DNA of 64,000 nt from Methylobacterium sp. NMS14P (lineage in GTDB: Bacteria; Pseudomonadota; Alphaproteobacteria; Rhizobiales; Beijerinckiaceae), in assembly GCF_028583545.1 (NCBI RefSeq), contig NZ_CP087107.1, forward strand, positions 456,501 through 520,500. The letters run 5' to 3'. The notes beneath the pieces are model-generated. The model made no database searches and had not been told where the DNA came from. It worked only from the letters and a program-made list of their open reading frames with translations. Position numbers and translations under genes: made by a program. This document shows positions 35,392-63,016 of the stretch, piece after piece (positions within the stretch are counted from its first letter, which is position 1; each line of letters begins with the position of its first letter).

Positions 35392-35949
35392 CGGCGGCTC
35401 TCGGCCAGACTGCGTCACGCCGGATCGTCAGCACACGCAGGACCAGACATTCGGCTTGGCGCCCATCACGACCATTCGGCGATCAACGCCGGTATCCCGG
35501 AAGCGGATCTGGTCTCACGTTGGATACTGCGCTTCAGATGTGCGTGCAGCATCGTAAGACCCCGTCGTGCGGAGGCGTGCGGCCGGGAGAGTCTGCGGCT
35601 ATCCGTTCGGAGAACAGCTTCAGGCCAGCGGGCGCGGCTCGGTGCTCGGTTCCGATCCCGCAAGAGGCGGCCGGGACTTTTGCAAGAAGTTCAAGACGTC
35701 ACGCGATTGATCAAGCCGCCTTTCTGGAGCTGCACGCTTGGCGGGCGGCCTCTGCAAGGGAGCAGAAGTCAGTTCGATGGCAGGAGAGGTCGCGTCCTTG
35801 GCCTCGAGAACACTGGCGCATCTGGGTCGCAGAAGGCGGTATGTCTGAGCGCCGTATGGATGCAGCCGATGGTCGCTCAAGCCCTCCCTTGAGAGCTCCC
35901 CCGTTTTAGGGATACTGGATACATAATGCTCGTTCGGGAGAGGGGTCAG
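35392..35949. other. Intergenic stretch before the Mo-hydroxylase/sox operon
   Basis: About 560 bases with no credible gene; frames open here have no ribosome site or family match. The last 60 bases are AT-richer and end in the GAGAGGGG ribosome site of the first operon gene, so the operon promoter should lie around 35880-35940. Confidence 0.4.
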
Positions 35950-36411
35950 ATGGCACGACTGAACGTCAACGGCGTCGTGCGTGAGGTCGATGCCGAGCCC
36001 GATACGCCTCTCCTCTGGGTTATCCGCGAGCAGATCGGGTTGACCGGCACCAAATACGGCTGCGGTATCGCCCAATGCGGCGCCTGTACCGTGCACATCG
36101 ACGGGGCGGCCGTCCGCTCCTGCTCCGTGCCGCTCTCGGCGATCGAGGCGGGGCAGAAAATCGTCACGATCGAGGGGCTGGCCCCGGATGCCCGCCATCC
36201 GGTCCAGCAAGCCTGGGCCGAGCTCGACGTGCCGCAATGCGGCTTCTGCCAGCCCGGGATGATCATGGCCTCGGCGGCGCTGCTGGCGCAGAACGCGCAT
36301 CCGAGCGAGGAGCAGATCCGTCAGGAGATCACCAACATCTGTCGCTGCGGCACCTACAATCGCGTCCTCGCGGGCATCAAGATCGCCGCCGAGCGCGGCC
36401 AGTCCGGCTGA
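35950..36411 (+). CDS. [2Fe-2S] subunit of a xanthine dehydrogenase-family (IorA-type) oxidoreductase
   Basis: A 153-residue protein with two [2Fe-2S] domains: the plant-type site [16 protein letters not shown] with a further Cys in RSCSVP (residues about 37-65), and the C-terminal site QCGFCQPGMIM ... CRCGTYNRVL (about 95-140). It relays electrons from the Mo cofactor of the next gene's product to a haem protein. It has no signal peptide; such subunits are exported folded together with the Tat-targeted partner. The ATG at 35950 follows GAGAGGGG. First gene of an eight-gene block reaching soxA. Confidence 0.9.
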   Translation: MARLNVNGVVREVDAEPDTPLLWVIREQIGLTGTKYGCGIAQCGACTVHIDGAAVRSCSVPLSAIEAGQKIVTIEGLAPDARHPVQQAWAELDVPQCGFCQPGMIMASAALLAQNAHPSEEQIRQEITNICRCGTYNRVLAGIKIAAERGQSG

Positions 36412-36425
36412 CGGGGGGAGAGCAG

Positions 36426-38618
36426 ATGAGCGAATCCAAGGCCTCCCCGCAGGCCGCCCGCCCCAGCCGCCGCACGCTGCTTGCCGGCGCCGGTCTGTTC
36501 ACCCTCGGCTTCCACATCCCGTTCCCCGCACGGGCCGCAACCCTCGACGCGGCGCCCGCCGCGCCGGAGGTGAACGCCTGGGTCGTGGTGAAGCCGGACG
36601 AGACCGTGGTGATCAGGATCGCCCGTTCCGAGATGGGCCAGGGCACGCTCACCGGCCTCGCGCAGCTCGTCGCCGAGGAACTCGACTGCGACTGGGCCAG
36701 GGTCACCACCGAGTATCCGAGCCCGGGCCAGAACCTCGCCCGCAAGCGCGTCTGGGGCGACTACTCGACCGGCGGCAGCCGCGGCGTGCGCGATTCCCAC
36801 GAGTACGTGCGAAGAGGCGGCGCCGCCGCCCGCACCATGCTGGTCGCCGCCGCCGCGAAGGGCTGGGGCGTACCCGCCGCCGAGTGCCGCGTCGAGCGGG
36901 GCGTGATCACCCACGGCCCCTCCGGCCGCAGCATCACTTACGGCGCCGTCGCCGCGGAGGCGGCCAGGATCGAGCCGCCGAAGGACGTGGTGCTCAAGGA
37001 TCCGAAGGACTGGACCATCGCGGGCAAGCCGCTGAAGCGGCTCGACACCCTGCCCAAGCTCGACGGCAGCCAGGTCTACGGGATCGATCTCAAGCTGCCC
37101 GGCATGCTCAACGCCGCGATCCGCGACTGCCCAGTCACCGGCGGCAGCGTGAAGAGCTTCGACGCCGCGGCGGTGTCGGGCATGCCCGGCGTAAAACGAG
37201 TCATCCAGGTCGGCGACAGCGCGGTCGCGGTGGTGGCCGACACGTTCTGGCGCGCCAAGACCGCCCTCGACGCCCTCCCGATCGTCTGGGACGAGGGACC
37301 GAACGCGCAGGTTTCCAGCGAGACCATCGCGTCGACCCTCCGCGAGGGGCTCGACGCCGAGCAGGCCTTCGTCGGCAACAAGGCCGGCGACGTGGCCGGC
37401 GCGCTGAAGGGCGCTGCCAAAGTGGTGGAGGCCGTCTACGGCGTGCCGTTCCAGAACCACGCCACGATGGAGCCGATGAACGCGACCGCGCTCTGGACGC
37501 CGGAGCGCTGCGAGGTCTGGACACCGACGCAGAACGGCGAGGCTGCACTGGCCGCGACGGCCGACGCCGCCGGGCTGCCGGCCACCTCCTGCGAGGTCTA
37601 CAAGATCCATCTCGGCGGCGGCTTCGGCCGGCGGGGCGCCACGCACGACTGGGTGCGGCAGGTGGTGCTCATCGCGAGGGAGATGCCGGGCACGCCGGTC
37701 AAGCTGATCTGGACCCGCGAGGAGGACATGACGCATGGCCGGTACCACCCGGTCACCCAGTGCCGGATGCGCGCCGCCCTCGACGGGGACGGCAACCTGA
37801 CCGGCCTGCACATGCGCATCTCCGGCCAGTCGATCCTGGCCGCCATAGCGCCACAACGCATGGTCGAGGGTCGCGACCCGGTCACTTTCCAAGGTCTCAA
37901 CCCCGGAGGACCGGAGGCCGCGATCGGCTACACGATCCCGAACATCCTCGTCGATCACGCGATGCGCAACCCGCACATCCTGCCGGGCTTCTGGCGGGGC
38001 GTGAACCTGAACCCGAACGCCATCTATCTCGAATGCTTCATGGACGAGCTGGCCCACGCCGCCGGCCAGGACCCGCTGGCTTTCCGGCTGAAGCTGATGG
38101 ACAAACACCCGAAGCACCGGGCCGTGCTGCGGGCGGTGGCCGACCGGATCGGCTGGGCCAACAAGCCGCCGGAGGGCATCTACCGCGGCATCTGCCAGAC
38201 GATGGGGTTCGGCAGCTACGTGGCGGGCGCGGCCGAGGTCTCGGTCTCCGACCAGGGCGAACTGAAGATCCACCGTATCGTGGCGGCCACCGATCCCGGC
38301 CACGCGGTCAACCCGCAGCAGATCGACGCGCAGGTGGCGGGCTCCTTCGTGTACGGTCTCTCGGCCGCGCTTTACGGCGCCTGCACGGTCAAGGACGGGC
38401 GCATCGAGCAGACGAACTTCGACAGCTATCCCGTGATGCGAATGGACGCGATGCCGGCGGTCGAGGCCATCCTGATGCCGTCCGGCGGCTTCTGGGGGGG
38501 CGTCGGCGAGCCGACGATCGCGGTCGCCGCGCCGGCCGTGCTCAACGCGATCTTCGCGGCGACCGGCAAGCGCGTTCGCCAGCTGCCACTGAAGGACACG
38601 GATCTGCGCCGGGCATGA
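36426..38618 (+). CDS. Molybdenum hydroxylase large subunit (IorB / xanthine dehydrogenase family), Tat-exported
   Basis: A 730-residue molybdopterin-binding subunit. The N-terminus PSRRTLLAGAGLFTLGF is a twin-arginine signal (RR at 15-16), placing the enzyme in the periplasm. GGGFGRRG near residue 397 contacts the cofactor, and GVGEPTIA near 695 holds the catalytic Glu. The family hydroxylates aldehydes, N-heterocycles or other carbon centres with water as oxygen donor. Its placement before flavocytochrome-type and Sox genes suggests electrons pass to those cytochromes or that its substrate is a sulfur-containing compound; this is inference. Its end overlaps the next start (ATGA). Confidence 0.9.
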   Translation: MSESKASPQAARPSRRTLLAGAGLFTLGFHIPFPARAATLDAAPAAPEVNAWVVVKPDETVVIRIARSEMGQGTLTGLAQLVAEELDCDWARVTTEYPSPGQNLARKRVWGDYSTGGSRGVRDSHEYVRRGGAAARTMLVAAAAKGWGVPAAECRVERGVITHGPSGRSITYGAVAAEAARIEPPKDVVLKDPKDWTIAGKPLKRLDTLPKLDGSQVYGIDLKLPGMLNAAIRDCPVTGGSVKSFDAAAVSGMPGVKRVIQVGDSAVAVVADTFWRAKTALDALPIVWDEGPNAQVSSETIASTLREGLDAEQAFVGNKAGDVAGALKGAAKVVEAVYGVPFQNHATMEPMNATALWTPERCEVWTPTQNGEAALAATADAAGLPATSCEVYKIHLGGGFGRRGATHDWVRQVVLIAREMPGTPVKLIWTREEDMTHGRYHPVTQCRMRAALDGDGNLTGLHMRISGQSILAAIAPQRMVEGRDPVTFQGLNPGGPEAAIGYTIPNILVDHAMRNPHILPGFWRGVNLNPNAIYLECFMDELAHAAGQDPLAFRLKLMDKHPKHRAVLRAVADRIGWANKPPEGIYRGICQTMGFGSYVAGAAEVSVSDQGELKIHRIVAATDPGHAVNPQQIDAQVAGSFVYGLSAALYGACTVKDGRIEQTNFDSYPVMRMDAMPAVEAILMPSGGFWGGVGEPTIAVAAPAVLNAIFAATGKRVRQLPLKDTDLRRA

Positions 38619-38908
38619 GGGCGATGACGCCGACGCTCGCGCTGCTCGCCGCCCTCGCGGGGGGAACGGGCGCGTGCGCCGCCGGGATGCGGCCGCCGCC
38701 CGGCGCCTCGTCCTGTACCGGCTGCCACGCCGAGGGCTCCGCGATGGGCGTGCTCGCGGGACGGCCGGAAGCCGAGATCGTCGGCGCGCTCGATGCCTTC
38801 CGAACCGGCGCGCGCCCGGCGACGATCATGAACCGCATCGCCAAGGGATTCGACGCGCGGGAGAGTCAGGCCATCGCCGCCTGGTTCGCGGCGCAGGGAT
38901 CGCGGTGA
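38615..38908 (+). CDS. Small c-type cytochrome, FccA-like
   Basis: A 97-residue exported protein with a signal peptide and one haem site, CTGCH at residues 34-38, with Met72 (ATIMNRIAKGF) as the likely sixth ligand. It is the size of a single-haem partner of flavocytochrome c sulfide dehydrogenase, whose flavoprotein follows with a TGATG overlap. It would accept electrons from sulfide oxidation. Its start overlaps the Mo-subunit stop. Confidence 0.85.
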   Translation: MRAMTPTLALLAALAGGTGACAAGMRPPPGASSCTGCHAEGSAMGVLAGRPEAEIVGALDAFRTGARPATIMNRIAKGFDARESQAIAAWFAAQGSR

Positions 38909-40170
38909 TGCGCGCTCCTCCCTCTCCGACCCGCCGCGCCCTGATCGGCGGAGCCGCGGCCGCCGCGCTGGCGCGCCCGGCCCTCGGTGGCACAGCTCCG
39001 CGCGTCGTGGTCGTGGGCGCCGGGTTCGGGGGTGCCACGGCGGCGCGCTGCCTCGCCGCGGGCGGCGTCGACGTGACCCTGATCGAGGCGGCCGAGCGCT
39101 ATGTCGCCTGCACGGGCAGCAACGCGGTCGTCGTTGGCCTGCGCGGCATCGAGGCCCAGACCTTCGGTTACGAGGCCCTCGGCCGAGCTGGACTGCGCTT
39201 CGTGCAGGGGATGGCGGATGCGGTCGACCCGGTGGCGCGCCGGGTGACGCTCGGCGACGGCACAGTACTGACCTACGACCGCCTGATCCTCTCGCCGGGC
39301 ATCGCGCTGCGCTTCGACGCGGTGCCGGGCTACGACGCGAAGGCCGCAGAGGTGATGCCCCATGCCTGGAAGGCCGGGGCGCAGACGGTGCTCCTCGCCC
39401 GCCAGCTCGAGGCCATGCCGGAGGGCGGCACGGTGGTCATCTCGGCGCCCGCCAACCCGTATCGCTGCCCGCCCGGCCCGTACGAGCGCGCGAGCCTGAT
39501 CGCCCATTTCCTGAAGACCCGGAAGCCGAAGGCGAAGCTCGTCCTGCTCGACGCCAAGGACACGTTCTCGAAGCAGAAACTGTTCGAGGCGGCCTGGGCG
39601 AAACTGTACCCGGACGTGCTCGAATACGTGCCGCTCGCCTCGGGCGGTGCGGTCACGGACGTCGACGCCGCCGCGATGGTCGTTCGCACGGACTTCGCCG
39701 AGTACAGGGCCGATGTGGCGTGCATCATCCCGCCCCAGCGCGCCGGCCCCATCGCGGCGCAGGCCGGCTGCGCCGACCGCAGCGGCTGGTGCCCGATCGA
39801 TCCGGTGACCTTCGAATCGCGCCTCGTGCCGGGCATCCATGTCATCGGCGACGCGGCGATCGCGGGGGCAATGCCGAAATCCGCCTTCTCGGCGAACGCG
39901 CAGGCCAAAGTCTGCGCGCAGGCGGTGATCGACCTGCTGGCCGGACGGGAGCCAGAGAGCCCGAAGCTCATCAACACCTGCTGGAGCCTCGTCGCACCGG
40001 GCAACGGCATCTCGATCGCGGGCGTCTTCCGCCCGACCGACGGTCTCCTGGCGGACGTTCCGGGAGCCGGCGGCATCAGCCCCCTCGACGCGCCCGACAC
40101 GGTGCGCGCGCAGGAGGCGGCCTGCGGCGAGAGCTGGTACCGGACGATCACCCGGGACGTGTTCGGATGA
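38908..40170 (+). CDS. fccB: Flavocytochrome c sulfide dehydrogenase flavoprotein (FccB-like)
   Basis: A 420-residue FAD protein with a Tat-like leader (TRRALIGGAAAAALA). VVVVGAGFGGATAA (about 33-46) binds FAD; YVACTGSN (Cys68) corresponds to the cysteine that covalently holds FAD in FccB; Cys187 (YRCPPGPYE) and Cys295 (GWCPID) match the redox-active disulfide. It oxidises sulfide to sulfur or polysulfide in the periplasm and hands electrons to the small cytochrome. C-terminal VIGDAAIAGAMPKSAFSANAQ is family-typical. Overlaps both neighbours. Confidence 0.88.
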   Translation: MRAPPSPTRRALIGGAAAAALARPALGGTAPRVVVVGAGFGGATAARCLAAGGVDVTLIEAAERYVACTGSNAVVVGLRGIEAQTFGYEALGRAGLRFVQGMADAVDPVARRVTLGDGTVLTYDRLILSPGIALRFDAVPGYDAKAAEVMPHAWKAGAQTVLLARQLEAMPEGGTVVISAPANPYRCPPGPYERASLIAHFLKTRKPKAKLVLLDAKDTFSKQKLFEAAWAKLYPDVLEYVPLASGGAVTDVDAAAMVVRTDFAEYRADVACIIPPQRAGPIAAQAGCADRSGWCPIDPVTFESRLVPGIHVIGDAAIAGAMPKSAFSANAQAKVCAQAVIDLLAGREPESPKLINTCWSLVAPGNGISIAGVFRPTDGLLADVPGAGGISPLDAPDTVRAQEAACGESWYRTITRDVFG

Positions 40171-40637
40171 GGGAAGGCCGCGTGGCCGCCATGCTCGTGC
40201 TGGCAGTCGCCGCCCCGCCGGCACGGGCCGGGGAGGGCCTTGTACCCATCACGATCGTCGGCGACGCCATCCCTGAGAGCCTGACGGGCGCGCCGGGCGA
40301 TGCCGCGCGCGGCCGGGCCATCGTCGTGGACCGGACCCGCGGGCTCTGTCTTCTCTGCCATACCGGACCCTTCCCGGAGGAGCGGTTCCAGGGCAACCTC
40401 GCCCCGGATCTCGCGGACGTCGGCGGGCGGCTGAGCTCGGGGCAACTGCGCCTGCGGCTGGTGGACGGACGGGCCTTGAACCCGGAGACGATCATGCCAC
40501 CCTATTACAGCCTGACAGGGCTCACCCGCGTGGGGCGGGCGTGGCAGGGACGCCCGATCCTGAGCGCGGCCGAGATCGAGGATATCGTCGCCTTCCTGGC
40601 GACGTTGCGCGGGGCTGGTCCCGAGGAAAGCCGATGA
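40167..40637 (+). CDS. soxX: Sulfur-oxidation cytochrome SoxX
   Basis: A 156-residue exported single-haem cytochrome with haem motif CLLCH (61-65) and Met110 in TIMPPYYS as the axial ligand. GDAARGRAIVVDRTRGLC and APDLADVGGRLS are typical of SoxX. With SoxA it forms the SoxXA complex that links thiosulfate to the SoxY carrier cysteine. Starts in a 4-base overlap with fccB and ends in one with soxY. Confidence 0.9.
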   Translation: MREGRVAAMLVLAVAAPPARAGEGLVPITIVGDAIPESLTGAPGDAARGRAIVVDRTRGLCLLCHTGPFPEERFQGNLAPDLADVGGRLSSGQLRLRLVDGRALNPETIMPPYYSLTGLTRVGRAWQGRPILSAAEIEDIVAFLATLRGAGPEESR

Positions 40638-41119
40638 GCGGGCACAGGAGACGGAGCGCACGTTCGATGGACCGGCGCGGTGTGCTCGCCGGGGCTGTCG
40701 GCACCGCGCTCGCCGTCGCGCTGCGCCCCGCCGCCGCGGCGACGCTGCCGCGCACGGAAACGACCGAATCCGCCATCCGGCGCTTCGCGGGTGACAACCC
40801 GATCCGGCCGGGCCGGGTGACCCTCGACCTGCCGCCGCTGGTGGAGAACGGCAATACGGTGCCGCTGTCTGTCGCTGTCGAGAGCGCGATGACGCCCGAG
40901 GATCACGTGCGCCGGATCGGGGTGTTCAACGAGAGGAATCCGCAGCCGAACGTCGTCACGGTCCACCTGCGGCCGGGCGCCGGCCGCGCGCAGGTCTCGA
41001 CACGCATCCGGCTCGCCGACACGCAGCGCATCACCGCCATCGCCGAGATGAGCGACGGGACTTACTGGTCTGCGAGCGCGGATGCCATCGTGACCCTCGC
41101 CGCCTGCCTGGAGGGCTGA
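40634..41119 (+). CDS. soxY: Sulfur-carrier protein SoxY with atypical C-terminus
   Basis: A 161-residue protein with a Tat-like leader (MDRRGVLAGAVGTALAVAL) and the SoxY immunoglobulin-like fold (LPPLVENGNTVPLSVAVES, MTPEDHVRRIGVFNERNPQPNV, RIRLADTQRI). SoxY normally ends in GGCGG, whose Cys on a flexible arm carries the sulfur substrate. Here the end is VTLAACLEG: one Cys, but with a bulkier, acidic setting. The Cys could still act as carrier. The annotation as SoxY is firm; its full function is not. Confidence 0.88.
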   Translation: MSGHRRRSARSMDRRGVLAGAVGTALAVALRPAAAATLPRTETTESAIRRFAGDNPIRPGRVTLDLPPLVENGNTVPLSVAVESAMTPEDHVRRIGVFNERNPQPNVVTVHLRPGAGRAQVSTRIRLADTQRITAIAEMSDGTYWSASADAIVTLAACLEG

Positions 41120-41124
41120 CCCCG

Positions 41125-41445
41125 ATGGCCCGGACGCTGATCAACCTGCCGAAGACCGCAAAGCCCGGCGACACGATCACGATCAAGACCTTGATCTCGC
41201 ACCCGATGGAGACGGGCTTCCGCCCCGGTGCCGACGGCCGGATCCTGCCGCGCAATATCGTGACGGACTTCGTCTGCCGCTTCGAGGACGAGGAGATCTT
41301 CCGGGCCGAGCTGTTTCCCGCTTCGGCGGCCAACCCCTACCTGACGTTCACCTGGATCGCGACGCGCAGCGGCCGCTTCAGCTTCACATGGCGCGGCGAT
41401 GGCGGCTTCGATCAGACCGAGTCCGCGGCGATCACCGTGGCCTGA
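41125..41445 (+). CDS. soxZ: SoxZ, partner of the SoxY sulfur carrier
   Basis: A 106-residue protein that forms the SoxYZ dimer. It has no signal peptide, as usual, and is exported with SoxY. Typical sequence includes GDTITIKTLISHPMETGFR near residue 15 and a C-terminal SFTWRGDGGFDQTES. It follows soxY by five bases. Confidence 0.92.
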   Translation: MARTLINLPKTAKPGDTITIKTLISHPMETGFRPGADGRILPRNIVTDFVCRFEDEEIFRAELFPASAANPYLTFTWIATRSGRFSFTWRGDGGFDQTESAAITVA

Positions 41446-41452
41446 GACCGCC

Positions 41453-42244
41453 GTGCCGCGCCGCTCGGTCTCCCTGCTGCCGACGGCTCTCGTGGGGCTG
41501 CTCCTCTCCAGCCCTGTCGCGCGGTCGGAGCCGATCCCACCGGCCGAGCGACACTCGGGCTTCGACCAGATGAGCCCCGAGATCCAGGCGATGCAGCGGG
41601 ACGACGGGGCCAATCCCGGCATGCTCGCGGTCGCGGACGGGGAGGATCTCTGGGCGAAGGCGCCTCCTTCCGGCCGGCCCGCCTGTGCCGGCTGCCACGG
41701 CGAGGCCTTGTCCACGATGCGGGGCGTCGCGACACGCTACCCCGCCTGGGACGCCCGGACCCAGAAACCCATCGACCTTCAGGCCCGGGTCAACACCTGC
41801 CGGGGCGAGCATCAGGGCTTAGAGCCTCTCGCCTACGAGAACCCCGACCTGTTGGCGCTCACGGCCTTCATCGCCGCGCAGTCCCGCGGGCTGCCGATGA
41901 CCCCACCGGATGATGTCCGGCTCGATCCCGCACGGGCCGAAGGCCGTGCGCTCTTCGAGGCGCGTCAGGGTCAGCTCGGTCTGTCCTGCGCGGTCTGTCA
42001 CGACGATCATTGGGGTCGCCGCCTCGGCGCGGCGGTGATCCCACAGGGACAGCCGACCGGCTATCCGCTCTACCGCCTCGAATGGCAGGGTCTCGGCTCA
42101 TTACAGCGACGCCTGCGCAACTGCCTCACCGGCATGCGCGCCGAACCCTTCGGGTACGGGGCGCCGGAATACATCGCGCTCGAACTTTACCTCGCGACCC
42201 GGGCCGCCCCGCTGCCGCTTGAGACGCCGGCCGTGAGGCCCTGA
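41453..42244 (+). CDS. soxA: Sulfur-oxidation cytochrome SoxA
   Basis: A 263-residue exported diheme cytochrome with a signal peptide (LLPTALVGLLLSSPVARS). Haem motifs are CAGCH (78-82) and CAVCH (179-183). The active-site Cys224 lies in RLRNCLTGMRAEPF, followed by the family-typical YGAPEYIALELYL. NTCRGEH (Cys116) corresponds to the conserved middle cysteine. With SoxX it attaches thiosulfate to SoxY. The start is a GTG seven bases after soxZ. No soxB or soxCD follows; the next gene is an unrelated metallopeptidase. Confidence 0.9.
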   Translation: MPRRSVSLLPTALVGLLLSSPVARSEPIPPAERHSGFDQMSPEIQAMQRDDGANPGMLAVADGEDLWAKAPPSGRPACAGCHGEALSTMRGVATRYPAWDARTQKPIDLQARVNTCRGEHQGLEPLAYENPDLLALTAFIAAQSRGLPMTPPDDVRLDPARAEGRALFEARQGQLGLSCAVCHDDHWGRRLGAAVIPQGQPTGYPLYRLEWQGLGSLQRRLRNCLTGMRAEPFGYGAPEYIALELYLATRAAPLPLETPAVRP

Positions 42245-46381: not shown

Positions 46382-47303
46382 GAGAGCCCGTCCGGTAAGG
46401 GTCTGAGGCGGGGTTGAGTGGCCGGGATGGCGATGATTCCAGGAGGGTGCTGAAGCCTGACCTGGAAGCGCCATGTGGACCCCGACCACCCGGCGGCAGC
46501 ATAGCCGCGTGGGCCTTCGCTATGAAACCGACCTTACCGACGCCGAGTGGGCGGTGATCGAGCCACTGATGCCGAGGCCAGCGCCCTGTGGCCGGCCTCC
46601 GCTCTGGACGACACGGGAGGTCCTGAACGCCATCTTCTACGTTCTGAGGGGTGGGATCTCCTGGCGGTTGATACCCAAGGATCTACCGCCGCGCTCGACC
46701 ACGTTCGGCTACTTCAGCCGCTGGCGCGACACAGGGCTGTTTGGCCGGATCAACCACCACCTGGTCATGGCCGATCGCGAGCGAGTCGGACGGGAAGCCT
46801 CACCGTCTGCCGCGGTCCTCGACAGCCAAAGCATCAAGACGACGGAGAGCGGCGGCCCGCGCGGCTACGATGCCGGCAAGAGGGTCAAGGGGCGCAAGCG
46901 CCAAGCGCTGGTCGACATGGACGGGCGCGCGCTCGTCCTCGATCCTCAGCCTGCCGACGTACAGGACCGCGACGGAGCCGTGCCGGTGCTGCGCCTGTCG
47001 CGTCGGACCTTCCCGTTCATCGCCAAAGCCTTCGCCGATGCAGGCTATGCCGGCAACAGACCGGCGACCGCCACGATCATCACGGTCGAGATCGTGCGCA
47101 AGCCGCCCCATCAAGTCGGCTTTGCCGTGCATCCACGCCGCTGGGTGGTCGAACGCTTCTTCGCCTGGATCAGCCGCAATCGCCGCCTCTGGAAGGACCC
47201 AGAGGCGACTATCGCCTCGGCCAGAGCATTCCTCTACGCGGCAGCCGTCATGATCCTCGTCAGGCGACTGGCCCGCTCAGCCTGACTTCTCGGACGGACT
47301 CTG
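46382..47303 (+). mobile_element. IS5-family insertion sequence
   Basis: The element is bounded by imperfect inverted repeats: GAGAGCCCGTCCGG at 46382-46395 on the left, and at the right end (47290-47303) the complement of CAGAGTCCGTCCGA. It carries one full transposase gene. The end bases are judged by eye, and a short target duplication could not be fixed. Confidence 0.8.
46473..47285 (+). CDS. IS5-family transposase (IS427-like)
   Basis: A 270-residue DDE transposase in one frame. The N-terminal domain has LTDAEWAVIEPLMP; catalytic Asp in VLDSQSIKTTE (about 115), second Asp in FADAGYAG (about 190) and the Glu in VVERFFAWISRNRRL (about 230). The gene looks intact. Confidence 0.9.
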   Translation: MWTPTTRRQHSRVGLRYETDLTDAEWAVIEPLMPRPAPCGRPPLWTTREVLNAIFYVLRGGISWRLIPKDLPPRSTTFGYFSRWRDTGLFGRINHHLVMADRERVGREASPSAAVLDSQSIKTTESGGPRGYDAGKRVKGRKRQALVDMDGRALVLDPQPADVQDRDGAVPVLRLSRRTFPFIAKAFADAGYAGNRPATATIITVEIVRKPPHQVGFAVHPRRWVVERFFAWISRNRRLWKDPEATIASARAFLYAAAVMILVRRLARSA

Positions 47304-50183: not shown

Positions 50184-50918
50184 ATGTCGCGCGCCGCCCG
50201 CCTGACCTACGCCTTGACCTGCTACGCGATCTTCCTGCTGGCGTTCCTCTACGCCGTCGGCTTTCTGGGACGCGCCGTCGTTCCGAAGACTGTGGACGAC
50301 GGGCCGCCCGTCGATCCGGGACTCGCCGTCCTCGTTGACGTCTCCCTGCTCGCCCTCTTCGCGCTCCAGCACAGCGTGATGGCACGCCCGGGCTTCAAAG
50401 TCTGGTGGACACGCGTCGTCCCGAAGCCCATCGAGCGCAGCACCTACGTCCTCCTAGCGAGCCTCGCGCTGCTGCTGCTGTTCTGGCAATGGCGTCCGCT
50501 CCCGGCTGTCGTTTGGGCGATCTCTGAGCCGGTGGCGGCGGGACTCCTTACGGGACTCTTTTGGATCGGCTGGCTCGTGGTCCTCGCCAGCACCTTCATG
50601 ATCAGCCATCTCGACCTCTTCGGGCTCAAGCAGGCCGTCCAGGGCTGGCGCTCGACCGCGCCGGGCGAGGCCGTGTTCAAGACACCCCTCCTCTACAGGC
50701 ACGTCCGGCACCCGATCTACCTCGGCTTCGTCATCGCCTTCTGGGCAACGCCGACGATGACGGCCGGCCATCTGCTGTTCGCCGCCGTCGCGACCGCCTA
50801 CATCCTCGTCGGTATCCAATTGGAGGAGCGCGACCTCGTCGCCTTCTTCGGTGATCGCTATCGACGCTATCGGCGCGAGGCGGGCATGCTCTTGCCGCGC
50901 TTTCGCGGTGCGCGCTGA
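50184..50918 (+). CDS. mddA: Methanethiol S-methyltransferase MddA
   Basis: A 244-residue membrane enzyme that methylates methanethiol with SAM to make dimethyl sulfide. Five or so membrane segments are seen (for example YAIFLLAFLYAVGFLG, YVLLASLALLLLFW). Family motifs are ALQHSVMARPGFKVWWTR, HLDLFGLKQ, and the C-terminal YRHVRHPIYLGF and GIQLEERDLVAFFGDRY, which bind SAM as in isoprenylcysteine methyltransferases. The ATG at 50184 follows GGAG. The assignment rests on strong motif agreement. Confidence 0.85.
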   Translation: MSRAARLTYALTCYAIFLLAFLYAVGFLGRAVVPKTVDDGPPVDPGLAVLVDVSLLALFALQHSVMARPGFKVWWTRVVPKPIERSTYVLLASLALLLLFWQWRPLPAVVWAISEPVAAGLLTGLFWIGWLVVLASTFMISHLDLFGLKQAVQGWRSTAPGEAVFKTPLLYRHVRHPIYLGFVIAFWATPTMTAGHLLFAAVATAYILVGIQLEERDLVAFFGDRYRRYRREAGMLLPRFRGAR

Positions 50919-60272: not shown

Positions 60273-60755
60273 TTGATCTCGTTCTCGGTCAACAAAGTCG
60301 ATGTCCATGTCGACGCGCCCGGCGACACGCCGCTACTCTGGATTCTGCGGGGTCGGCTGGGGCTGACAGGCACCAAGTTCGGGTGCGGGATCGCGCAGTG
60401 CGGGGCCTGCACCGTCCACGTCGATGGTCAGGCCCGGCGATCCTGCGTCACCCCGGTGGCGAGCGTCGGCGGCAGCGCCGTCACGACGATCGAGGGGCTG
60501 GCCGCGACAGCGGGTGCCGGCGGAGAGCTCCACCCGCTCCAAAAGGCCTGGATCGCGGCCCAGGCTCCGCAATGCGGCTACTGCCAGTCCGGGCAGATCA
60601 TGCAGGCCGCGGCCCTCCTGAGCGAGAACCCCGACCCCTCCGACGACGACATCAGCCAGGGCATGGCCGCGAACCTCTGCCGTTGCATGGCCTACCTCCG
60701 CATCCGCAGGGCGATCAAGCTCGCGGCCAGGGCGCAGAACGGAGGCCGCGGATGA
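60273..60755 (+). CDS. [2Fe-2S] subunit of a second IorA-type oxidoreductase
   Basis: A 160-residue protein with a TTG start six bases after GGAGG. [2Fe-2S] sites: [16 protein letters not shown] with RSC (about 37-65) and [12 protein letters not shown] ... [10 protein letters not shown] (about 100-145). Clearly a paralogue of the 36-kb subunit. Cytoplasmic fold, exported with its partner. Its stop overlaps the next start (ATGA). Confidence 0.9.
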
Positions 60756-63016
60756 GCGGGCGCGACATCACGCGGCGCTGGTTCGTCGCCTCCATCGGCA
60801 GCGCGGCCGTCGCCACGGGCTTCCTGCCGGCCGCCGCCAAGGCGGACCCGCTGTTCGGCGGCGCCTCGTCCGGCGGCTACAACCCGACGCTCTGGTACGA
60901 GGTCCGCGGCGACGGCCGCATCCTCATCCACGTCACCAGAGCGGAGATGGGCCAACACATCGGAACGGCGCTCGCGCGGGTCGTCGCCGAGGAGCTTGAA
61001 GCGAGGTGGGACCACGTCGAGATCGTCCACGTCGACACGGACCCGCGCTGGGGCGTGATGATCACGGGCGGCTCCTGGTCCGTGCACAAGAGCTTCGACC
61101 AGCTGAGCCGCGCGGGTGCGGCCGGCCGCATCGCGCTGCTGGAGGCCGGTGCGAGGATGCTCGGGGTGCCCGCGAAGGAGTGCGACGCCCGCGACAGCGA
61201 GATCCGACACATTTCGCGCTCGATCGGCTACGCGGACATCGTCGCCTCAGGCGAGGTCACGCGCCAGTTCACGGAGGCGGATCTCGCCTTGATCACCCTC
61301 AAGCCGGCCTCGGAGCGGCGTCTTCTCAACCACGACACCGCGGCGCGCGACGTGCCGTCGAAGGTCAACGGCACCGCCGTCTACGGCATCGACCGGAAGG
61401 TCGACGGCATGGTGTTGGCCAGGCCCGTCCTGCCGCCGACGCGGTATGGCAACAGCATCCTCAGCTGGGACGACACGGCCGCGCGCAAGCTCCCCGGATA
61501 CCTTCGCACCGTGGTCATCGACGATCCGACGCGGACGTGCCAAGGCTGGCTCGTCGCCGTGGCGGAGAGCTGGCCCATCGCGGCCCAGGCGGCCGATCTC
61601 GTCGAGGTCCGGTACAAGTCCCAAGGCGGCGCGGCGAGCGACGAACAGATGCTCGCGGAGGGCGCGCGCCTCATTGAGAATCCGAACACGGGCGGCGTCT
61701 TCCATCAGGACGGCGATCCCCTGACCCGGATTGCCGAAGCCCGTGAGGTGCACGAGGGCCTCTATCGCACGCATACCGCCCTGCACATGCACCTCGAACC
61801 GCTGAACGCCCTGGCTTGGCAGGACGGGAAGACGTGGCGCGTGCATGCCGGCAATCAGTGGCAGTCGATCACGCTGCCGCTCGTGGCCAAGGCGCTCGGG
61901 ATCAGCCAGGCCGACCTCGTCTTCGAGACCTCCTATCTCGGCGGCGGCTTCGGCCGGCGGCTGTACTGCGAGTTCATCGTCCCGGCGGCGCTCGCCGCGA
62001 AGGCGATGGGTCGGCCGGTCAAGCTGATCTTCGCGCGATCCGACGACACCAAGTTCGATCAGCCGCGATCCCCCACCGTGCAGAGAATCCGCTCGGTGAC
62101 CGATGGCAAGGGTGCGCTTCTCGCCTACGACCACAGGTGCGCGGCGGGCTGGCCGACCGACTCGATCTCCCCGGCGGCTCTGGAGCCCAGCAAGGACGGC
62201 AACGGGACGGTCGATCCATTCGCGATCAGCGGCGCCGACCATTGGTACGACTCGGAAAGCCAGCGGATCTGCGCGATCCGCAACGACCTCGTCCACACGA
62301 CGCTGCTGCCCGGCTATCTGCGCTCCGTGGCGCCCGGCTACACCACCTGGGCGGTCGAGACGCACATCGACGAGCTCGCGCACGCGCTCGGCCGGGATCC
62401 GGCCGAGTACCGCCTCGCGCTCCTCAGCGCCAAGGGCCGCAACGGCGGAGCCGCGCCGCACGCAGTCGGCGGGGCGAACCGGCTGCGTGCCGTCCTGGAG
62501 TGGGTGCTGGAGAGGTCCGGCTGGTCCAACCGCCACGCGCTGCCCTCCGGCAAGGGAATGGGCCTCGCTCTCGGCACCGGGCAGGAGCGCGAGATGCCGA
62601 CCTGGATCGCCACCGTCGCGCAGGTCGCGGTCGACGGTGCCAGCGGAACGGTCAAGGTCGAGAAGCTGACCTCCGTGTTCGATGCCGGCACGCTGGCGCA
62701 TCCCGACGGCGCGATGGCGCAGGCGGAGGGCAGCGTCCTCTGGGGGCTGTCGCTGGCCATGTTCGAGGGCACGGAATACCAGAAGGGCCTGCCTCGGGAT
62801 CTCAACCTCGACAGCTACACGCCGGTGCGCATGACCGACGTGCCGGAGCTCGACATCGAGTTCCTGCGCAACGACCACATGCCGGTCGGCCTGGGCGAGC
62901 CCGGCGTGATCTCCGTCGCGCCCGCCATCGGGAACGCGATCTTCGCGGCCGTGGGCGCGCGCGTCCGCGATCTTCCAATCCGGCCAGAGGCGGTTCGTGC
63001 CGCGATGGGAGCCTGA
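60752..63016 (+). CDS. Second molybdenum hydroxylase large subunit (IorB type), Tat-exported
   Basis: A 754-residue molybdopterin subunit. N-terminal [19 protein letters not shown] is a twin-arginine signal. [12 protein letters not shown] near residue 395 and the catalytic [12 protein letters not shown] near 715 are intact. It shares family motifs with the 36.4-kb protein but diverges strongly in between, so the substrate probably differs. Coupled to the [2Fe-2S] gene and followed after two bases by a diheme cytochrome gene, which should take its electrons. Confidence 0.9.

Follow-up and report, generated by a model that had tools for sequence, protein, structure and literature searches.

A close described counterpart of the operon considered here is the second sox cluster of Starkeya novella, in which soxX2Y2Z2A2F2 is combined with a xanthine-oxidase-family molybdenum (Mo) enzyme (Snov_1975-1982; PMC3797975, 2013, consulted in excerpts). 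The window, a stretch of 64,000 nucleotides from Methylobacterium sp. NMS14P (contig NZ_CP087107.1, positions 456,501 to 520,500), contains an operon of eight + strand genes at positions 35950-42244, which encode a Mo hydroxylase, the flavocytochrome FccAB and SoxX, SoxY, SoxZ and SoxA. As described in those excerpts, the S. novella cluster is alike in gene content, with the Mo enzyme inside the operon and neither SoxB nor SoxCD. The likeness is one of published gene content and not of sequence, and S. novella also holds a complete Sox system, whereas the host genome has no SoxB. The gene layout is therefore not new, and the carrier protein, SoxY, already has an NCBI family name. Joint inheritance of the carrier, the Mo enzyme, SoxA and FccB, together with their independence of SoxB, supports one SoxB-independent pathway, predicted to be centred on the Mo enzyme.

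Other described systems resemble the operon in part. Canonical Sox comprises SoxXA, SoxYZ, SoxB and SoxCD. The operon shares with it homologues of SoxX, SoxY, SoxZ and SoxA with haem motifs, but it lacks SoxB and a local SoxCD, its carrier arm is AACxE and not GGCGG, and FccAB and the Mo hydroxylase are added. The family TIGR04487 (SoxY-related AACIE arm protein) includes the window SoxY over its curated cut-off, but models the carrier alone and names no pathway. The quinoprotein-dehydrogenase-associated carriers of TIGR04557 are also of the SoxYZ type, and are tied to a dehydrogenase by family name. However, they are fused YZ proteins with a GGCSAP arm and, in the host genome, a metallohydrolase neighbour, and the window SoxY scores 58.4 bits against their cut-off of 140. 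In SAR324, a flavocytochrome c sulfide dehydrogenase (FCSD) between SoxY and SoxZ likewise accompanies an incomplete sox set (PMC4782131, in excerpts). In contrast to the operon, no further sox subunits were recovered there, and the excerpts do not describe the isoquinoline 1-oxidoreductase of SAR324 as linked. Beyond the S. novella paper, searches limited to open-licence papers brought up no account of an AACIE carrier tied to a Mo enzyme; nor did they bring up any of the set's wide conservation, its SoxB independence or its tie to an AACxE arm. Databases name the carrier a sulfur- or thiosulfate-oxidation protein.

The operon consists of the following genes.

35950..36411, + strand: IorA-like Fe-S subunit with two 2Fe-2S domains, of a xanthine-oxidase-family Mo hydroxylase (PF00111, PF01799)
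36426..38618, + strand: Mo-cofactor subunit, IorB- or aldehyde-dehydrogenase-like (PF02738, PF20256; best solved relative 8gy3_C, 265.7 bits)
38615..38908, + strand: FccA-like monohaem cytochrome c with one CxxCH (matches 5n1t_B, 3vrd_A, 1fcd_C)
38908..40170, + strand: FccB, flavin subunit of flavocytochrome c sulfide dehydrogenase (PF21706, PF09242; 5n1t_A, 433.5 bits)
40167..40637, + strand: SoxX monohaem cytochrome (TIGR04485, 72.5 bits, cut-off 61; 1h31_B)
40634..41119, + strand: SoxY-related AACIE-arm carrier (TIGR04487, 212.1 bits, cut-off 172)
41125..41445, + strand: SoxZ, the carrier partner (PF08770; TIGR04490, SoxZ_true, 70.4 bits, slightly below the cut-off of 76)
41453..42244, + strand: SoxA dihaem cytochrome (TIGR04484, 211.4 bits, cut-off 110; 1h31_A, 2c1d_A)

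An initial annotation of this DNA had reported eight packed genes on one strand, and all of them were found where it placed them. It also called the operon fused, which is wrong if gene fusion was meant, because the genes merely overlap; the word can mean just tight packing. The junctions range from -4 to +14 bp if SoxA starts at the GTG at 41453, and the alternative ATG at 41399 would give a 47-bp overlap with SoxZ. Judged from this spacing, the eight genes likely form one transcript. The Fe-S subunit starts at the ATG at 35950, with an alternative at 35926. For several genes, the profile searches used in-frame starts other than the likely ones (for instance 36417 for the Mo subunit and 41438 for SoxA).

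The hydroxylase is of the two-subunit xanthine-oxidase-family type, with a 2Fe-2S subunit and a Mo-cofactor subunit that has the conserved Glu. This residue lies in a GVGEP motif and is presumably the catalytic residue of the family. The N-terminus of the Mo subunit is Tat-like (SRRTLL, a signal recognized by eye). An NCBIfam search with both hydroxylase subunits gave no model over its cut-off, so none names a substrate. The flavocytochrome has the domains, conserved cysteines and c-type haem subunit of FCSD, and is predicted to oxidise sulfide. The cysteines of FccB in RCPPGPYERA and TCWSLVAPG line up with those of 5n1t, and we take them to be catalytic. SoxX and SoxA agree with canonical SoxXA in their haem motifs and in the aligned cysteine of the active haem: Cys224 of SoxA lines up with a cysteine of 1h31 that we assume to be a haem ligand.

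The genes of the set are inherited together. Methylobacterium and Methylorubrum are the nearest named relatives, and among 111 genomes of the same genus the carrier is found over its cut-off in 50. SoxB is over its cut-off in 24 genomes, and the two coincide in 9, which is about the chance expectation (p = 0.49; because the genomes share ancestry and Fisher values ignore kinship, p-values are merely illustrative). The SoxB model matches 83 of the 111 genomes at an E value of 0.001, and only the 24 over the cut-off were counted; the remaining matches reach at most 143 bits, except for a second piece in genome G088. The Mo subfamily, at 78% identity or more, is present in 49 of the 50 carrier genomes and in none of the other 61; the next best of the listed copies are at most 42% identical. 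The one remaining carrier genome, G012, retains a Mo fragment of 85% identity at the end of its operon-bearing contig. SoxA occurs in all 50 carrier genomes, and so does FccB, which was found in 2 of the 8 carrier-free genomes included. A class-wide sample of 385 genomes has the carrier in 21, SoxB in 38 and both in 2. The Mo subfamily (at least 62% identity in this sample) is in all 21 carrier genomes and in 10 of the other 364; a related SoxY that does not reach the cut-off is encoded somewhere in nine of these ten, and none in the tenth, G176.

The operon is not always intact. Among the 50 carrier genomes of the genus, 15 have SoxA apart from SoxY, either on another contig or, in the few-contig assemblies G005, G011, G064, G072 and G105, at a distance of over 1 Mb. 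The FeS-Mo-FccA-FccB and XYZA blocks are separate islands in G030 and G051. At loci L068 and L084, Mo-XYZA occurs without FccB, which these genomes encode elsewhere (55% and 50% identity), perhaps as a different gene. This retention of the parts in genomes with a broken operon argues most strongly for one pathway.

The set is also found in many other, mostly alphaproteobacterial, genomes from several orders, and is thus probably a separate pathway. At least 545 relatives were confirmed when one genome per species was scanned, and 80 loci were analysed. Gene order was counted in the 60 loci with enough flanking sequence; the other 20 were left out. The order is the same in 59 of these 60, and all eight genes were detected in 34, so the initial annotation's question of whether the order recurs outside the host genome is answered in the affirmative. 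By gene, the detections in the 60 loci are FeS 59, Mo 59, FccA 43, FccB 57, SoxX 60, SoxY 60, SoxZ 60 and SoxA 51; FccA is perhaps under-detected because it is short and divergent. By tblastn, no SoxB was found in the DNA around any of the 80 loci. Clustering of open reading frames over the same loci revealed nothing widely shared outside the eight genes, although a small conserved neighbour may be missed, because short genes tend to escape the clustering (SoxX was recovered in 31 loci and FeS in 36). One non-core cluster exceeds 13 loci; it occurs in 26 and, from one N-terminus inspected by eye, resembles transporter paralogues. Outside Methylobacterium, the median identity to the window is 67.1% for Mo, 63.3% for SoxX, 62.4% for FeS, 58.6% for FccB, 57.8% for SoxY, 56.2% for SoxZ, 55.6% for SoxA and 52.0% for FccA (16 to 49 loci per gene). 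The top rank of the Mo subunit suggests that it is central.

The carrier differs from that of canonical Sox in its arm. The canonical arm terminates in GGCGG, and SoxB presumably depends on this arm. The sole cysteine of the window SoxY, Cys158, instead lies in LAACLEG near the C-terminus, and the arm is thus AACLEG. The protein scores 100.3 bits against the GGCGG carrier model TIGR04488, below the cut-off of 125. It is therefore not an ordinary Sox carrier but the AACIE-arm type of TIGR04487, a key feature that the initial annotation had missed. The arm is [AGP]ACx[ED] in all 80 related loci (AACxE 73, PACxE 3, GACxE 3, AACxD 1; L074 was counted in its correct frame), and GGCGG ends all six SoxB-adjacent SoxY proteins examined (L098, L099, L129, L130, L131, L152). 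Among Mo-linked carriers that are more distant, the arms are of a related kind, for example SGACIELGE, or GACVED with an extension behind it; the acidic residue is absent in three of them (L125, L127, L128). When 51 SoxY sequences were placed in a tree, a branch with support of 99/93 split 45 Mo-labelled carriers and L150, whose Mo gene is on another contig, from the rest, the bootstrap being not fully settled. The rows represent 31 of the 80 loci, the window SoxY, 18 further SoxY and one fused SoxYZ. They were trimmed to the last 130 residues, or directly after the arm for L133 and L134; one row labelled Mo, L023, has its Mo gene elsewhere in the genome.

Two of the distant loci contain a gene with an FGE-sulfatase domain within the Mo-linked SoxYZ/FccAB/SoxXA set (L133:7445-8296 and L134:6424-7347). 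They also share a small protein, alike by eye, and their SoxY has a C-terminal extension beyond the GACVE arm.

SoxB has no match at an E value of 0.001 anywhere in the host genome (6.88 Mb, rated 100% complete, with the operon on a 542-kb contig). The SoxB-free branch that the initial annotation proposed is also supported elsewhere, as SoxB is below the cut-off in 41 of the 50 carrier genomes of the genus and in 19 of the 21 in the class. The reported lack of SoxCD is correct for the operon but not for the genome. A SoxC match of 601 bits (cut-off 420) at C2:284573-285775 (also L011:7538-8788, where L011 is G000:C2:277000-293000) adjoins a SoxD-like cytochrome about 207 kb from the operon on the same contig, and the best solved relatives of the two are both chains of 2xts. 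Overall, then, the earlier interpretation stands for the SoxB-free branch, stands locally for SoxCD, and fails for a proposed link to mddA (see below). As far as the sequence can tell, neither of the outcomes that the initial annotation had named as refuting it has come about: soxB is missing, the SoxCD-like pair is distant and the gene order is not unique.

SoxC was rejected as a hidden partner of the carrier. It is over its cut-off in 78 of the 111 genomes of the genus, and its occurrence is independent of the carrier there (34 of 50 carrier genomes, 44 of 61 others; p = 0.68). The SoxCD-like pair is located among genes for luciferase-like monooxygenases, an acyl-CoA-dehydrogenase-like flavoprotein and, by eye, a sulfonate-type transporter, and is possibly a sulfite dehydrogenase for organosulfur breakdown. 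The host genome also encodes a fused SoxYZ-like carrier (G000:C1, L012:6104-8005; TIGR04557, 271.7 bits, cut-off 140), beside which is a SoxH-like zinc metallohydrolase (TIGR04559, 361.7 bits, cut-off 280).

Inheritance as a set, the AACxE arm, independence of SoxB and intact motifs are evident at the level of sequence. On this basis, we tentatively favour, at somewhat less than even chances, a single periplasmic pathway that would use half of the Sox machinery without SoxB, with the Mo hydroxylase acting on the carbon of an organosulfur compound. SoxXA would load Cys158 of SoxY with sulfur at the thiol or sulfide level, and FccAB would oxidise sulfide or freed sulfane. In place of SoxB and SoxCD, the Mo hydroxylase would oxidise the carbon part of the organosulfur compound, perhaps an aldehyde- or thioacyl-level group, either bound to the carrier or released from it. 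Electrons would exit via c-type cytochromes. The change in the arm probably brings the carrier together with the Mo enzyme and not with SoxB. An organosulfur compound is our best guess for the putative substrate, and oxidation of sulfane is a rival. That a xanthine-oxidase-family Mo hydroxylase uses a substrate delivered on the AACxE arm of SoxY, so that a Sox-derived pathway ends without SoxB, is possible but doubtful. If true, this would to our knowledge be the first enzyme of the family with a protein-bound sulfur substrate.

Several observations weigh against an organosulfur pathway of this kind. The closest solved relative of the Mo enzyme (8gy3_C) is an aldehyde dehydrogenase. The locus of G176 comprises FeS-Mo-X-A but lacks SoxYZ, and its genome gives no SoxY match at an E value of 1e-25; the Mo copies of G401 and G310 have no sox neighbour in the stretch read. 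SoxA is not nearby in 9 of the 60 loci, and FccB is not in 3. The genomes of a single genus do not count as independent samples. SoxB might be replaced by the SoxH-like hydrolase that the host genome encodes elsewhere, and the excerpts of PMC11237559 cite a Sulfurimonas strain, sp. CVO, in which SoxH compensates for the lacking SoxB. Methanethiol was lowered just slightly by a recombinant mixture of canonical Sox proteins (PMC5371076, in excerpts), which does not establish thiol chemistry by such proteins in that account. In S. novella, according to the excerpts of PMC3797975, neither SoxAX nor SoxYZ of the equivalent cluster was detected, one subunit of the flavocytochrome occurred at a low level, and the cluster was transcribed very weakly whether on glucose, methanol or thiosulfate. 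The authors of that paper suggested that the cluster lacks functional significance in this organism, but left room for a role under other conditions.

Perhaps FccAB, SoxXA and SoxYZ detoxify sulfide and persulfide by storing or oxidising sulfide, and a Mo aldehyde dehydrogenase with a substrate of its own is co-expressed with them in response to the same stress. This would suit the presence of FccB in 57 of the 60 loci and in all 50 carrier genomes, and the cysteines that it shares with solved FCSD. However, the Mo gene tracks the carrier even at split loci, and its median identity exceeds that of FccB. Moreover, the two Mo-XYZA loci have no FccB nearby (the copies elsewhere in both genomes are perhaps not the same gene). 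We consider detoxification unlikely.

The xanthine-oxidase family hydroxylates carbon, and we know of no member that oxidises sulfur. This counts against a replacement of SoxCD by the Mo hydroxylase, in which carrier-bound sulfane would be oxidised stepwise with water and the product would leave otherwise, for example through the SoxH-like hydrolase. The Mo subunit has also kept its carbon-hydroxylase motifs. Because the enzyme should, by its signal, be periplasmic and is tied to a sulfur carrier, and because the genome does encode a SoxH-like hydrolase, for which Sulfurimonas offers the cited precedent, this replacement deserves mention, although it is rather unlikely.

A role in carbon metabolism is conceivable if the carrier cysteine binds an aldehyde as a thiohemiacetal, which is our own idea, and the Mo enzyme oxidises it. 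An aldehyde dehydrogenase being the closest solved Mo relative fits, the host genome encodes a fused SoxYZ with a metallohydrolase elsewhere, and the available part of PMC11237559 speculates on carbon-metabolism functions for other divergent fused SoxYZ. We judge this role very unlikely, because it leaves the retention of SoxA and FccB in all 50 genomes unexplained. Finally, a redundant, functionless partial Sox copy, as the low expression and the authors' cautious view in S. novella might imply (PMC3797975, in excerpts), is highly improbable, because the set is retained in 50 of 50 carrier genomes of the genus, split or unsplit, and in several orders, and the host genome has no complete Sox system to duplicate.

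Whichever substrate is used, the set is present in about half of the same-genus genomes (50 of 111). With an altered carrier and without the diagnostic enzyme, SoxB, such organisms could be misjudged if soxXYZA is scored as thiosulfate oxidation. Now that a Mo hydroxylase and a sulfur carrier are seen to be so tightly co-inherited, what was a vague second sox cluster can be tested as a pathway.

Other genes of the window lie downstream of the operon. A gene for MddA, a methanethiol S-methyltransferase, is found at about 50184-50918, roughly 8 kb away (374.9 bits, cut-off 270). The initial annotation had taken mddA as a hint of linked organic sulfur chemistry, but tblastn places it near none of the 80 related loci (flanks up to 10 kb), and it was rejected as part of the system. 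What by eye resembles an IS5-type transposase gene is located between the operon and mddA at 46473-47285. A second xanthine-oxidase-family Mo subunit (MoCoBD_1, MoCoBD_2) is encoded at 60383-63016, 18 kb from the operon.

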